Below, one piece after another: positions 12,912-62,517 of a stretch of DNA of 64,000 nt. Made by a program: the position numbers and the translations under genes. Positions within the stretch are counted from its first letter, which is position 1, and each line of letters opens with the position of its first letter. The notes beneath the pieces were generated by a model. That model ran no database searches, had not been told where the DNA came from, and was given only the letters and a program-made list of their open reading frames with translations. This DNA is from Brevibacillus sedimenti. Lineage in GTDB: Bacteria; Bacillota; Bacilli; Brevibacillales; Brevibacillaceae. Location: assembly GCF_020923495.1 (NCBI RefSeq), contig NZ_CP064048.1, forward strand, positions 87,501-151,500. Reading direction: 5' to 3'.

Positions 12912-13682
12912 TTACGACGTCTTCCATTTCGCCAGTTCGTCCGGAAACTTGTCGTTCAACACTTTAATATAGGTGCCTTTCATGCCGAGCGAGCGGGACT
13001 CCAGCACGCCCGCGCTGGCCAGTTTTCTGAGCGCGTTGACGATGACGGAGCGGGTCAGGCCGGCCTGATCAGCCAGTTGGCTGGCGACGAGCAGCCCTTC
13101 CTTGGCATCGAGCTGTTCCATGATTTTCTCGATAGCGATCTGCTCGCTGTACGACAGGGACGAGAGCGCAATTTTGGCAAAGGTTTTGTCGCGCACCTCG
13201 CTTTCGATCTGCTCCGTGCGCTGGCGGACAATTTTCATGCCGATGACGGTGGCGCCGATTTCCGCCAGGATCAGATCCTCCGTCTCAAATTGGCCGTACG
13301 CCCGCAGCAGGACGAGTGTGCCGAGGCGGCTGCCTCCGGCGTTGATCGGCACGATGGTGGTCATCATCTGCGGGAAAAGCGACACCAAGTCGGGTGTCAC
13401 CATGCTGTAGGGGCTTTGCACCGGTTCGTTGGCCAGTGATTGGCTTACCTCCAGCAGCCGCTGATGATAGCCGGCAGGAAGCAAGTCTTTCGTCTGCTCA
13501 CCGACGGCAAAATCCTGCTGCAGTCCGCTGCCGATGATGGAGCCGTCGGCAGTGATGATGTAGACGTTGGCGTCGATGACGTCGGACAAAAGTCGGGCCA
13601 GGTCGTGGTAGCCGACTCCGCTGCCTCCCATCGTTTTTTGCAGCATCACATTAATCTTTCTCGTTTTCTCCAGTAAATTCAT
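12912..13682 (-). CDS. codY: CodY, GTP/branched-chain amino acid-sensing repressor
   Basis: CodY represses stationary-phase, nutrient-uptake and virulence genes when GTP and branched-chain amino acids are plentiful. The 256-residue protein has the N-terminal GAF ligand domain (TTIVPINAGGSRLGTL) and the C-terminal winged helix with ASQLADQAGLTRSVIVNAL and SRSLGMKGTYIKVLN, nearly invariant in CodY. The N-terminal half is more divergent from the B. subtilis protein. The start follows CAAGGAGGAAAAAAAGG. It is not next to the usual xerC-hslV-hslU partners but stands alone, so it may be a second copy. Confidence 0.92.
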   Translation of the reverse strand: MNLLEKTRKINVMLQKTMGGSGVGYHDLARLLSDVIDANVYIITADGSIIGSGLQQDFAVGEQTKDLLPAGYHQRLLEVSQSLANEPVQSPYSMVTPDLVSLFPQMMTTIVPINAGGSRLGTLVLLRAYGQFETEDLILAEIGATVIGMKIVRQRTEQIESEVRDKTFAKIALSSLSYSEQIAIEKIMEQLDAKEGLLVASQLADQAGLTRSVIVNALRKLASAGVLESRSLGMKGTYIKVLNDKFPDELAKWKTS

Positions 13683-55402: not shown

Positions 55403-55936
55403 TCCATCTCGTAAATATTTGGGCGTCCCTTCCTCCCTGCTGTGCCATAAGATGATACATACCTATCTGCTGTGGGGGGAGATACCGTGAAAAGTAAAAA
55501 ATGGTCCCATTACACCAAAGTCAAGTACCCTGTGAGCAGCAGTTTACATCCTCTCAACTTTTTCGTGCCGATTGTGGAGCGCGTCAAGGCAGGCGTCGTC
55601 TCCATTGTGACCGAGGATACGCCCCACGGGCACAAAATGGAATCGCTGATCCGCAGTCTGATCACCGACGAGTCGCCACTTCCCTCCGAGCGGAGTTACG
55701 GCTCCGGTTTTATATTTCATCCCAAAGGATACATTCTCACCAGTGAGCACGTGATAGGAAAATCGCGGACCATCTACGTCAAACTGTACAACGGGAAGGT
55801 GTTTGAAGCACAACGGGTGCTGACCGACCGCGTTCGCGACTACGCTGTTATCAAGATCGACGCGGATTGCAAGCTGACCCCGCTGCGGCTGGGCAGTTCA
55901 GCCGACACGAAGGTGGGCGAATGGGTCATCAGCATT

Positions 55937-55946
55937 GGTTCCCCGC
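55937..55946 (+). repeat. attL core
   Basis: GGTTCCCCGC direct repeat, left copy, codons 151-154 of the protease. The right half of this site (55946-55966) is element-derived. Confidence 0.85.
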
Positions 55947-56005
55947 CTGCCGCCATAGCGGCAAACCGAGGACTAAATGGCGAGTGCCGCTTGGGAGTGA
56001 ATGCA

Positions 56006-56036
56006 ACTTACCTTTCTCAAGTATGTATGTTACAAT
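56006..56036 (+). promoter_or_regulatory. Candidate promoter and operator of the HxlR gene
   Basis: A TACAAT -10 (56031-56036) lies 17 bases after a weak TTACCT. The imperfect inverted repeat ACTTAC (56006-56011) / GTATGT (56021-56026) covers the spacer, as expected for HxlR-type autoregulation. Confidence 0.4.
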
Positions 56037-56078
56037 TAAGGACAACACAATAAGCTGTTTCGCAGAGGTGACACCGAC

Positions 56079-56399
56079 GTGGGTCAAGAATTTGCTGGCG
56101 AGCAAATGTGCCCGAAGTACGAAGGGGCCATGAACATTCTCGGCAAGAGATGGACCGGACTGATCATCCATGTGCTGCTGCTCGGGGCTGTCCGTTTCAA
56201 GGACATCCGCGAAATGGTGCCGCACATGAGCGATAAAATGCTGTCGGAACGATTGAAAGAACTGGAGGAACTGGGCATTCTGGAACGCAAGGTGTTTCCG
56301 GAAACTCCCGTCCGCATTGAATACCATCTGACGGAAAAAGGAAAAGATCTGCGCCCCGTGATCGAATCGATTCACGCTTGGGGCCAGAAGTGGATATAG
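56079..56399 (+). CDS. HxlR-family winged-helix regulator with N-terminal redox-type cysteine
   Basis: A 106-residue MarR/DUF24 (HxlR) regulator. The start is GTG 56079 after GAGGTGACACCGAC. Its N-terminus is MGQEFAGEQMCPKYEGAMNI, with the single conserved Cys before the first helix that YodB/CatR/HypR-type sensors use for quinone, diamide or disulfide stress. The HTH (FKDIREMVPHMSDKMLSERL) and wing (PVRIEYHLTEKGKDL) follow. It lies inside the recombinase element, upstream of the recombinase and separated from it by a terminator. It may regulate itself, the recombinase or host genes. Confidence 0.88.
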   Translation: MGQEFAGEQMCPKYEGAMNILGKRWTGLIIHVLLLGAVRFKDIREMVPHMSDKMLSERLKELEELGILERKVFPETPVRIEYHLTEKGKDLRPVIESIHAWGQKWI

Positions 56400-56433
56400 T
56401 CGGCTGCACCGGCTGTCCGCGCCCCGCTAAAGT

Positions 56434-56462
56434 CCCGCCAGGAACGTCGGCGGGGCTTTTTT
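56434..56462 (+). terminator. Terminator between HxlR and recombinase genes
   Basis: CCCGCC (56434-56439) pairs with GGCGGG (56449-56454), followed by GCTTTTTT. The recombinase would need its own promoter, not evident in the remaining 70 bases. Confidence 0.7.
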
Positions 56463-56531
56463 GGCTGTCCAGGCATATGCACCGCTTCCCTGCTGTAGAC
56501 TCTACCATCCGCGATGAGGGAAGGTGGTTCG

Positions 56532-57986
56532 ATGCGAACGGCTGTCTACATTCGCGTCAGTACGGAGGAACAGGCCAAGGAGGGATTTTCCGTGGCCGCC
56601 CAGCGGGAGCGGCTGCTCGCCTACATTCGCTCCCAGGGCTGGACCTTGGCGGACATCTACGCCGACGAAGGCGAGAGTGCCAAGGATACGCGCCGGCCTG
56701 CGCTGCAGCGGATGCTGGCAGACGTGCGGCTGGGGCGGATCGACGTGGTGCTGGTGTACCGGCTGGACCGTCTGACCCGCTCCGTCCTGGATCTGTACCG
56801 GCTGCTGAGCCAGTTTGAACGGTACGGCGTCCGCTTCAAAAGCTGCACGGAAGTCTACGACACGACGACGGCAATCGGCCGGCTGTTCATCACGCTGGTG
56901 GCGGCTCTGGCCCAATGGGAGCGGGAAAACCTGGCGGAACGAGTGAAGCTGGGGATGGAGCAGATGGTGAGGGAGCGAAAACGGCCGGGCGGCCCCCCGC
57001 CCTACGGTTATGAATGGCAGGACGGCCGGCTGGTGGTGCATCCGACAGAGGGAGAGGCAGTTCGCGGCATGTTCCGGCATTTTCTGGCCGGATGGACACC
57101 CCGGCAGATTGCCGAATGGGCCAACCATGAGGGCTTTCGCGGTAAACACGGTGCCCGCTGGAGCCCCGGCGCGGTGACCCGCCTGTTGAAAAATCCGGTA
57201 TACTACGGAGCCCTGCGATGGAACTACGCAGAAGGCGGCCAGCGGCTCAACCGGCCGGAAAAGTGGATGCTCGTCGAACGGGCACATCCGGCCATCGTCG
57301 ATGCCTCCACGTTTGCAGCCGTCCAACAGCGACTTGCGGAGCGGCGGTCTCTTCATCCCCGGGTCCTCTCTTCGCCGTTCATCTTTTCCGGCCTCCTGTA
57401 CTGCTCCCGCTGCGGCTCACCGATGCGCGGCAAGACGGCCCGGACCAAAAAACCCAACGGCAAACGCTACACGCACCACTATTACCTGTGCAAAAACAGG
57501 CAGAAGGGCGGGTGTCAGGCCGCCGCGATCCGCGAAGATCGGCTGGCCCGGGAAGTGATCAGCCACCTCCACCGCTACGGGGAGGAACTGCGTGCGGCCT
57601 GCCGCGAAGCTGTCGCGTCCGGGGCAGCTCAAACGGAAATGGCGGCAGCGGAAGCGCTGCTGAAAAAATGCCGGCAAAGGCGGAAACGCTGGGAAGACGC
57701 CTATGCCGAAGGGCTCATCACACTGGGAGAGTACCGCGCCAAGCTGGGAGAGCTGAAACAGGCGGAACAGGAGGCGCTGGCCGCAGCGCAGTGCCGCCCT
57801 CTTGCGGCCGTTTCGGACGAGTGGCAGGAAATGCTGGCTGATTGGTCCTCCATCTGGGAGAGTGCCACGCGGGAAGAGCGCCGGCAGTTGGCCGACATTC
57901 TGCTCCGCCGTCTGGAAGCGGATACGTGTCCGTCAGCGTCCGGCTCCGGTCTGGCCGTGCGCCTCACGCTGCTCGCGTTTCGCTGA
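56532..57986 (+). CDS. Large serine recombinase (site-specific integrase)
   Basis: A 484-residue large serine recombinase. The catalytic domain (1-150) begins [20 protein letters not shown] with the nucleophile Ser at residue 10, followed by [17 protein letters not shown]. The recombinase domain (about 160-270) has PPPYGYEW and [14 protein letters not shown] zinc ribbon (CSRCGSPM ... [12 protein letters not shown]) and a coiled-coil-rich C-terminus complete the protein. The start follows GAGGGAAGGTGGTTCG. The stop is 26 bases from the attR core, the usual arrangement of integrase and attP. Likely cuts at the central TC of the GGTTCCCCGC core. Confidence 0.93.
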
Positions 57987-58012
57987 GGCAGTTTGCCCCT
58001 ACGGGAGCAGAC

Positions 58013-58022
58013 GGTTCCCCGC
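58013..58022 (+). repeat. attR core
   Basis: GGTTCCCCGC direct repeat, right copy. Left of it lies element sequence (57991-58011 is the attP left arm), right of it the protease frame continues as [11 protein letters not shown]. Confidence 0.85.
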
Positions 58023-58279
58023 TCGGTCTGGAAAACTCCGTCACGGCCGGCATCATCAGTGCCAAAAACCGGCGCCTGCAGGTGGCCAGGCGGATGTACG
58101 AGGATATTTTTCAGACAGACGCGGCGATCAACCCCGGTAACAGCGGCGGTCCGCTGATCAATCTGAACGGAGAAGTGATCGGACTAAACGCGTTCATTAT
58201 TCAATCCAGTCAATGTCTCGGATTTGCCATCGGCATTGACGCGCTGAAGGAGCGGTTGGCACAGTTCGTGTTCACCTAA
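58013..58279 (+). pseudogene. Trypsin-like (HtrA-type) serine protease, 3' part
   Basis: This 89-codon piece begins [20 protein letters not shown] and contains the catalytic serine loop [20 protein letters not shown], ending [10 protein letters not shown]. It has no start codon with a ribosome-binding site, so it is probably silent while the element is in place. It is in the same phase as the 5' part across the 2,076-bp element. There is no PDZ domain after the protease domain, so the rejoined enzyme is a minimal HtrA-like protease. Confidence 0.9.
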
Positions 58280-59095: not shown

Positions 59096-59710
59096 GTGCA
59101 AGAGATGTCACAACTGCACGCCATATTTACCCGCACCAGCGGCTTTATCGAGCGCTTCATGGGCATCATCCAGCCGATTATCGACGCGGCGCAGGATGAA
59201 CACACCCGCCTGTACTATCACCACATCTTGGAGGAAGAAGAACAGCGCCTCGGCCGCCTGAACGAGCTGATTCCCTACCTCGACTCCCTCATCGACGGGG
59301 ACAAGGCGAAACAACTCAGCGATCGGGAGTTTTCCCGCCTGCTTTCCGACATAAATCTGGAACGGTTCGGCCTGCACAACTTCCGCGAACACCTGGAACT
59401 CTCCCTGTACGAGTTTCAGGACGAGGAGACGCGCAGTGTCCTGAGCAGCATGCGCGAAGCGACCCAGGAAGATTACCTCCGCGTCAAGGAGATCATTGCC
59501 GCGCTGAGCGAACGCTTTTCCGACGACGACCGCCGTCCTGACCTGACCGACCATGACGAGGGGCACGACATTCACCAGGTGGATCACCTGCAGGCTTCCG
59601 CGGCCCAAATCGGTTCAGCACACGCCGGAAAAGCACCGGGAGCCGCACATGCCGTTTCCGCCCCGGCAGCCAAAAAAGGATTGACCGTCGGCAGTTTGAA
59701 GGGGTTGTAA
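59096..59710 (+). CDS. IMEF-type iron-mineralizing encapsulin cargo protein
   Basis: A 204-residue protein with a helical ferritin-like region (residues about 1-145: EEEEQRLGRLNELIPYLDSL, NFREHLELSLYEFQDEETRS) and a disordered His-, Ala- and Pro-rich linker (about 150-190). It ends KKGLTVGSLKGL, the TVGSL-type encapsulin loading peptide. These match IMEF proteins of Firmicutes, which oxidise Fe(II) and fill a large encapsulin shell with iron mineral. The start is GTG 59096, nine bases after AGGAGG; an ATG three codons later is too far from it. The shell gene follows 48 bases downstream. Confidence 0.9.
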   Translation: MQEMSQLHAIFTRTSGFIERFMGIIQPIIDAAQDEHTRLYYHHILEEEEQRLGRLNELIPYLDSLIDGDKAKQLSDREFSRLLSDINLERFGLHNFREHLELSLYEFQDEETRSVLSSMREATQEDYLRVKEIIAALSERFSDDDRRPDLTDHDEGHDIHQVDHLQASAAQIGSAHAGKAPGAAHAVSAPAAKKGLTVGSLKGL

Positions 59711-59758
59711 AGGGCCGTTTCTTCTTCATCATTTTTGAACGAATTGGAGGTAGCAACG

Positions 59759-60607
59759 ATGGACAAGCTCCGCAAGTTTCCCGACTCTCCCTTGACGAAA
59801 GACGAGTGGCACCAATTGGACGAGACCGTCGTCGAGATGGCCCGCCGCCAACTGGTCGGACGCCGCTTTATCGATATCTACGGACCGCTTGGCGAAGGCA
59901 TCCAGACGATTACCAACGACATTTACGAGGAATCCCGCTTCGGGGGCTTAAGCCTGCGCGGCGAATCCCTGGAGCTGACCCAGCCGAGCCGACGGGTCAG
60001 CCTGACCATCCCGATCCTGTACAAAGACTTCGTGCTGTACTGGCGCGACGTCGCCCAGGCCCGCACCCTGGGGATGCCGCTGGACATGAGCGCCGCAGCC
60101 AATGCGGCCGCAGGATGCGCTCTGATGGAAGACGACCTGATTTTCAACGGCTCCAAGGAGTTTGATCTGCCCGGCCTGATGAACGTCAAGGGGCGCCTCA
60201 CCCACTTGAAAAGCGACTGGATGGAATCCGGCAACGCATTTGCTGACATCGTCGAGGCCCGCAACAAGCTGTTGAAGATGGGACACAGCGGCCCGTACGC
60301 GCTGGTCGTCTCTCCGGAACTGTACTCGCTGCTGCATCGCGTCCACAAGGGGACCAACGTCCTGGAAATCGAGCACATTCGCAATCTGGTGACCGACGGG
60401 GTGTACCAATCCCCCACCATCAAGGGACGCACCGGCGTGCTGGTTGCCACCGGCCGGCACAATCTGGACCTGGCAATCGCCGAAGACTTCGACACCGCGT
60501 TCCTCGGCGACGAGCAAATGAACAGCTTCTTCCGCGTTTACGAGTGCGTCGTGCTCCGCATCAAGCGGCCGAGCGCCATCTGCACGCTGGAAGAAACGGA
60601 GGAATAA
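59759..60607 (+). CDS. Encapsulin shell protein (family 1)
   Basis: A 282-residue HK97-fold shell protein. Hallmarks are LTKDEWHQLDETVVEMARRQ, GRRFIDIYGPLGEG, the P-domain and E-loop region (SRRVSLTIPILYKDFVLYWRD), and the C-terminal FFRVYECVVLRIKRPSAICTL. Subunits assemble into a hollow icosahedral compartment. The upstream IMEF cargo, with its loading peptide, makes this an iron-storage nanocompartment. The ATG at 59759 follows TTGGAGGTAGCAACG. Twenty bases after the stop begins an antisense group II intron, which separates the gene from its original terminator. Confidence 0.95.
   Translation: MDKLRKFPDSPLTKDEWHQLDETVVEMARRQLVGRRFIDIYGPLGEGIQTITNDIYEESRFGGLSLRGESLELTQPSRRVSLTIPILYKDFVLYWRDVAQARTLGMPLDMSAAANAAAGCALMEDDLIFNGSKEFDLPGLMNVKGRLTHLKSDWMESGNAFADIVEARNKLLKMGHSGPYALVVSPELYSLLHRVHKGTNVLEIEHIRNLVTDGVYQSPTIKGRTGVLVATGRHNLDLAIAEDFDTAFLGDEQMNSFFRVYECVVLRIKRPSAICTLEETEE

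Positions 60608-60627: not shown

Positions 60628-62517
<1,890 letters not shown>

Follow-up and report, generated by a model that had tools for sequence, protein, structure and literature searches.

The stretch of Brevibacillus sedimenti DNA analysed here (64,000 nucleotides, G000:C1:87501-151500 of a 3.93 Mb genome; below, the window) carries a gene for an HtrA-like serine protease that is cut in two by an element encoding a large serine recombinase. This is very probably a sporulation gene-intervening element resembling skin and gin, which would be excised in the mother cell with rejoining of the protease gene. The comparisons below give good support to excision at a TC dinucleotide by the recombinase that the element encodes, and membership in the skin/gin kind is assigned provisionally. 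The protease is probably a sporulation gene, judging from its promoter motifs and its occurrence, and we infer the mother-cell timing from the protease promoter, the related case of sleL and the logic of skin and gin.

The left piece of the protease gene (55487-55946, forward strand) begins with GTG, encodes the His and Asp motifs and matches positions 1-91 of PF13365 (the profile match was run on the open reading frame 55472-56053). The right piece (58013-58279, forward strand) supplies the catalytic Ser in the motif GNSGG and matches positions 87-144, so that the two cover complementary parts of the family. Joining the flanks gives a single frame of 238 amino acids, the interruption falling at the codons for Gly-Ser-Pro. 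An earlier reading of this DNA from its letters alone (the sequence-only reading) had described a protease frame that breaks and resumes, with His and Asp on the left and Ser on the right, and the profile matches and an alignment bear this out. The intact homologue in the related genome G019 is HtrA-like (TIGR02037, 216 bits, below the cut-off of 416), and its closest solved structure is the HtrA protease 1l1j (4.5e-46).

The direct repeat GGTTCCCCGC occurs at both junctions, as the core of the left attachment site (attL, 55937-55946) and of the right (attR, 58013-58022), at the spacing of 2,076 base pairs (bp) already reported for it. The crossover is predicted at TC, at 55940-55941 and 58016-58017 on the forward strand, from the repeat, the palindrome of the rejoined ends and the comparison of 29 elements of the window's type; the intervening element between the two points (55942-58017, no strand) is 2,076 bp long. 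When the element ends are rejoined (attP), 18 of the 25 arm positions in the window's site pair up as a palindrome around TC; the 16 of 21 given previously refers to this palindrome too, with the count starting at arm position 5 and moving outwards. Over the 29 elements, attP scores 14-20 of 25 (mean 17.0) with a fixed TC centre, against means of 8.8 for the empty site (attB), 7.0 for attL and 9.0 for attR at the same centre (n=29). Random joins reached at least 14 in 24 of 20,000 trials, so that the attP palindrome goes far beyond chance. Across all 29 elements, attL and attR agree at six core positions, GG, TC and CC, which are separated by variable ones, and TC is therefore the shared pair at the palindrome centre. 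This combination, a short direct repeat at each end and a circle site that is symmetric about a central dinucleotide, is the anatomy of the skin/gin kind. The sequence-only reading also pointed out that the length of the interruption is a multiple of three. This is true of the window but carries no weight as evidence: lengths run from 2,076 to 3,697 bp and fall 11, 9 and 9 among the three remainders, as expected by chance, and exchange between matching cores restores the frame at any length.

The distribution of the element was followed in 149 genomes, the window's included, after which all 39 genomes of the family Brevibacillaceae were searched again. The protease is interrupted in 31 of the 39 and uninterrupted in eight (G019, G027, G029, G032 and G035-G038). 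In 29 of the 39, an element of the window's type interrupts the gene at identical codons: it is the only one in 25 genomes of the window's genus and in G028, and is accompanied by an element of a second type in G031, G034 and G030, while G026 and G033 have only the second. Within the genus, every genome but G019 (25/26, counting the window) has a two-piece protease whose pieces flank a recombinase of 57-90% identity; the closest named relative is B. thermoruber, at 92% over the left protease piece. A collection of named Brevibacillus strains contributed 24 loci, 21 interrupted and three uninterrupted (L122, L123 and L125), the right piece being outside or unseen in the stretch examined for L116, L119 and L120. 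B. borstelensis NRRL NRS 818 (L104) and B. parabrevis NRRL NRS 605 (L112) are among the strains with a split gene. Many of these loci come from genomes already counted in the 39; that of B. migulae (L126) lies outside them.

Recombinase distances correlate with those of the flanking PadR gene (r = 0.907, n = 23, 0/2,000 shuffles), of the flanking Flp gene (r = 0.879, n = 23) and of the protease pieces (r = 0.785, n = 26), and the two flanking genes correlate with each other at r = 0.901 (n = 20). Three of the 26 genomes were left out of each flanking-gene set, because the match was too short in the stretch used. The recombinase thus tracks PadR as well as PadR and Flp track each other, arguing that it is inherited vertically, near genus-wide.

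An uninterrupted homologue in relatives, whose absence the sequence-only reading had named as grounds for refuting it, exists in the eight genomes above, and G019 has the exact predicted junction. G019 clusters with the split genomes G002, G004, G005, G006, G012, G013, G014 and G018 (100/100 support) and within them sits in a six-genome subclade (88/90 support) that excludes G006, G013 and G014, also split; most other forks of this tree lack resolution. Over the 255 bases left of the junction it shares 250-254 with these eight relatives, and over the 200 bases to the right, 189-196. The base after GGTTC is C in G019 and in 8/8 attR sites, and T or A in 8/8 attL sites. Judged from these bases, the G019 junction is the product expected from a single exchange at TC, and it may derive from a mixed culture or from a choice made in assembly.

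Rejoining in silico yields a full-length protease of 237-242 amino acids in 31/31 interrupted genomes. All 39 family genomes keep the triad motifs (G021 has LTSQHV in place of LTSEHV, with the His retained), and no left piece contains a stop codon. The ratio of nonsynonymous to synonymous change (dN/dS) was calculated by the Nei-Gojobori method, excluding pairs with saturated synonymous sites or dS <=0.05. Among split genomes (n=25), median dN/dS is 0.047 for the left piece (206/300 pairs usable) and 0.017 for the right (118/300), and the recombinase gives 0.146 (126/300). Intact genomes (n=7) give 0.082 for the left part (8/21 pairs) and 0.014 for the right (5/21), and six split genomes of other genera give 0.111 (4/15) and 0.060 (5/15). 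By these ratios both halves of the gene are under strong purifying selection.

The recombinase (56514-57986, forward strand; 490 amino acids) has the Resolvase, Recombinase and zinc-ribbon domains (PF00239, PF07508 and PF13408) that define a large serine recombinase, and an Arg-Val/Ile-Ser motif is found in 29/29 elements of its type. When open reading frames of at least 45 amino acids were compared, the sole other conserved gene in the window's element was that for an HxlR-family regulator of 106 amino acids (56079-56399, forward strand; PF01638, 1.7e-31), which is present in 27 of the 29 elements. Between the two genes on the same strand lie a GC-rich inverted repeat followed by a T-run (56421-56465), read by eye as terminator-like and resembled by features seen by eye in many relatives, and a conserved region of the form GCATA-N15-CTGTAGACTCTA (56473-56504), recognized in an alignment of 26 upstream regions. 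The latter has one exact match in the source genome, the window's own, and one with 3 mismatches; the reversed control gave 3. The sequence-only reading had presented the element as minimal, containing only a recombinase and one regulator. That description holds for the window and for G022 but not for the type, since 24 of the 29 also carry a YheC/D ATP-grasp gene (assigned in G014 by PF14398, 1.1e-78), and G026 has such a gene in its element of the second type. The B. subtilis genes yheC and yheD belong to the sigma-E genes and are raised by SpoIIID (PMC517825). No phage structural or replication gene was recognized in the window's element. Likewise, HxlR, recombinase and YheC/D were the only conserved genes recognized in 26 elements, the remaining open reading frames of G034 and G030 being unclassified.

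A related recombinase, of 47-48% identity, interrupts a LysM-LysM-GH18 gene in another family, Aneurinibacillus and its kin, where four genomes show it (f12; G087, G127, G137 and G147, three of them in G137's genus; loci L142-L145 and L163-L166). In G147 the two pieces are on separate contigs, and G115 has an intact homologue. This gene, sleL/yaaH, groups with a solved cortical-lytic enzyme and YaaH (4s3j, 2e-64; 4s3k). The rebuilt sites centre on GG and are palindromic at 15, 15 and 18 of 25 positions in G087, G127 and G147, the three genomes in which they were resolved; random joins searched over centres in the same way reached at least 15 in 15/2,000 trials and 18 in 0/2,000. More distant recombinases (L147-L150) mostly adjoin repressor- or ImmA-like genes and, by eye, look like those of ordinary prophages. 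The source genome itself has a second recombinase copy (L146, G000:C1:2727265-2728689; 46% identity), next to which is a gene that by eye looks DUF817-like; a split gene was looked for around it and none was recognized.

The protease promoter looks like one of the late mother-cell type. The -10 pattern CATANNNTR lies 39-48 nucleotides ahead of the protease start in 39/39 family members, and 33 of them also have, 29-30 nucleotides ahead of it, the full sequence RWWTRGGYNNYY, which we take to be the GerE consensus. The window's versions are ATTTGGGCGTCC (55417-55428), a GerE-box-like sequence, and CATAAGATG (55446-55454), a sigma-K-like -10, both on the forward strand. The two motifs occur together in 70 of 18,886 background windows, these promoters included. 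Among 13 orthologue loci outside the family, in which organisms may recur so that not all are independent, CATANNNTR occurs at varying distances within 150 nucleotides of the aligned start in 13/13 (background, 7.7% of windows), and the full KCACM-N14-16-NCATANNNTR in 5/13 (background, 0.36%). The occurrence of the gene also speaks for a role in sporulation, as a lead only: matches to the protease at E <= 1e-50 occur in 73 of 123 SpoIVA-positive and in 0 of 26 SpoIVA-negative genomes (the left piece being used for split genes, and the negatives comprising 20 listed and six counted by elimination).

Several observations weigh against a sporulation switch of this kind. The link with SpoIVA-positive genomes is confounded by phylogeny, because the genomes are related. 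The recombinase of G003 is shorter, with about 435 codons for query residues 5-489, and may be impaired, and G034 and G030 keep the recombinase without an HxlR gene. The presumed GerE consensus was not found spelled out in the literature consulted. A full -35/-10 match to the sigma-K consensus, as given in PMC3416734, is found in 0/39 Brevibacillaceae protease promoters. Lastly, the region upstream of the recombinase matches a sigma-E or sigma-K consensus in 1/29 elements, which does not support such a promoter for this gene. The recombinase may instead be made constitutively with a separate factor setting the direction, an arrangement reported for SPbeta and for C. difficile skin (PMC5595907). 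HxlR, the only candidate for such a factor recognized in the window's element, was rejected as a universal one because it is missing from G034 and G030; it is possible in the other 27. A short peptide or a host-encoded factor could also fill the role.

In the mechanism that we propose, recombinase and directionality factor would exchange strands at TC in the mother cell, releasing the element as a circle and rejoining the protease gene in frame. Sigma-K RNA polymerase, helped by GerE, would then express an active late mother-cell protease, whose substrates might be, as a guess, spore coat or cortex proteins. The forespore would keep the interrupted copy, so that the split gene is inherited.

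A second type of element adds to this picture. A second recombinase is found in 5/39 family genomes, 51-54% identical to that of G030 and, where compared, 24-28% identical to the first, and it ends immediately ahead of a right piece whose start lies further into the protease gene. Its predicted exchange point is AC, 27 bp after TC. In four of the five genomes that AC is the centre of the best palindrome obtained by rebuilding the site (11, 11, 13 and 15 of 22; none for G034), and random joins over the centres searched reached 11 of 22 in 756/2,000 trials, 13 in 85 and 15 in 5. The score of G033 (15) is clearly above chance and that of G030 (13) weakly so; 11 is not significant. In G031, G034 and G030, a mini-exon of 12 codons lies isolated between the two elements; proteins of 240-242 amino acids result when the joins are made at both TC and AC. 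B. migulae (L126, 10001-19669) has a fourth three-piece protease, with its mini-exon at 13528, a second recombinase 47% identical and a first-element palindrome at TC that scores 16 of 25. The first recombinase there matches residues 2-354 only and may be broken. In G033 (B. dissolubilis; L090, 3033-14806), the right protease piece is on the opposite strand in the one assembly, and to rejoin the gene about 11.7 kb would have to be inverted, not excised. The intervening segment, possibly invertible, holds the second-type recombinase and what by eye looks like a Tad-pilus operon, and the second-type elements of G034 (L091) and G030 (L092) contain, by eye, kdp-like potassium-transport genes. Double interruptions may exist in cyanobacterial nif genes as well. 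With slightly better than even confidence, we suggest that the three-piece protease of these four genomes would need two distantly related recombinases, acting at TC and at AC, as a two-key DNA lock. The locus would then have repeatedly recruited programmed rearrangement (insertion at the second site alone is seen in two more species, one of them inverted), and the element in the window's lineage would have shrunk to a recombinase and an HxlR gene that perhaps sets the direction.

The alternative that survives best, still an unlikely one, is a DNA switch that responds not to sporulation but to some other trigger, such as redox stress that HxlR would sense, and that would restore the protease in growing cells. 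HxlR does resemble the redox regulators RrpB and RrpA, below the cut-off, and a Cys-Pro-Lys-Tyr/Phe-Glu motif is present in 25 of the 29 loci searched; its upstream region looks sigma-A-like by eye. However, the motifs ahead of the protease are those of a mother-cell promoter, and the related recombinase interrupts sleL/yaaH. Frequent excision during growth should also lead to heritable loss, yet only 1/26 genomes of the genus is without the element.

A simple mobile parasite in a dispensable protease gene, with the split gene decaying, is somewhat less probable again. The recombinase is phage-integrase-like: its best-ranked phage match is 39% identical over 96% of the query, and identity reaches 49% over 65% among the matches listed. 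G019 is cleanly without the element, and the shortened recombinase of G003 is a further point for this reading. Against it, both halves are under strong purifying selection, no left piece has a stop codon, and insertion at the same codons is found in 29 genomes with vertical descent. A recent arrival of the recombinase from phage is not supported either, since at least 60% identity was found in none of 1,300 matching phage records and none of the 5,000 best plasmid records. The sequence-only reading had put forward a developmental switch, with a simple parasite as the alternative; vertical inheritance (25/26), purifying selection, the mother-cell-type promoter and the related recombinase in a second spore gene strongly favour the switch.

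It is very improbable that the two halves are made as separate proteins which assemble without any rejoining of DNA. Both halves are open and conserved, and in the two loci inspected an in-frame start codon lies upstream of the right piece. However, the conserved 12-codon piece stranded between two elements in four species fits only DNA rejoining, and the retention of palindromic ends and recombinase and the precise empty site of G019 argue in the same direction. Removal at the RNA level, by an intron or in the manner of an intein, is scarcely credible and was rejected: nothing was found in its favour, the element has the attachment-site anatomy of a recombinase, and the only Rfam matches that reach the gathering threshold between 54500 and 62500 come from a group II intron further downstream, at 62134-62433.

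That intron occupies window positions 60698-62433 on the reverse strand and combines a reverse transcriptase/maturase (PF00078 and PF08388) with the intron RNA matches. Nearer the protease, just downstream at 59096-60607, are genes for an IMEF cargo Flp protein (PF24309) and an encapsulin shell (PF04454); the Flp gene comes after the protease in the relatives inspected.

Several known systems resemble the sporulation switch proposed here. One is gin in gerE of Bacillus cereus ATCC10987 (PMC5595907), a non-phage element in a mother-cell gene, whose excision rebuilds the gene; it has a serine recombinase, a short direct repeat and a circle site built symmetrically around a central dinucleotide. 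It is 28.6 kb long, has three recombinases and a 42-amino-acid directionality factor, GirX, and is reported from a handful of strains, whereas the 29 elements described here are 2.1-3.7 kb long, have one recombinase and no identified GirX-like gene, target a protease and are vertically kept across a genus. The skin elements in sigK of B. subtilis and C. difficile (PMC5025042, PMC517825) share the large serine recombinase, the mother-cell sporulation gene and excision in sporulation, the last two of which we infer for the present case. B. subtilis skin is 48 kb long and prophage-like, with its recombinase under sigma-E and SpoIIID, in contrast to the lack of a sigma-E fit upstream of the recombinase here. 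SPbeta in spsM (PMC4191935) likewise rebuilds a spore-envelope gene through serine recombinase excision but is an active prophage, while the elements here are without recognized phage genes. The element yin also interrupts a sporulation protease (as is probable here), but in its account (PMC10747680) it is a prophage-like insertion in the cysteine protease gene yabG of one strain only; the present target is an HtrA-like serine protease interrupted near genus-wide. Finally, the fdxN element of heterocyst-forming cyanobacteria (PMC4874684) is excised in a differentiating cell by a serine recombinase, XisF, but in another phylum and from another target; the G014 recombinase scores 183 bits against the NCBIfam XisF model, with a cut-off of 375.

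What appears to be new is the near genus-wide fixation, the minimal two-gene form, the protease target, the double interruption around a mini-exon and the relative in sleL. Searches of an open-licence library listed no title or abstract on a Brevibacillus protease or sleL/yaaH interrupted by such an element, which is weak evidence of novelty because most subscription journals are outside that scope. The analysis would add two target genes, the HtrA-like protease and sleL/yaaH, to the known sporulation gene rearrangements, and, for a compact serine recombinase, it supplies 29 attL/attR pairs from nature. Natural variants are available by the dozens, along with an empty site, double insertions and the two-gene form, so that the choice between a tolerated passenger and a timing device becomes directly testable. 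The known rearrangements compared here are mostly individual cases in prophage-like elements; the one described here is fixed across nearly a whole genus.

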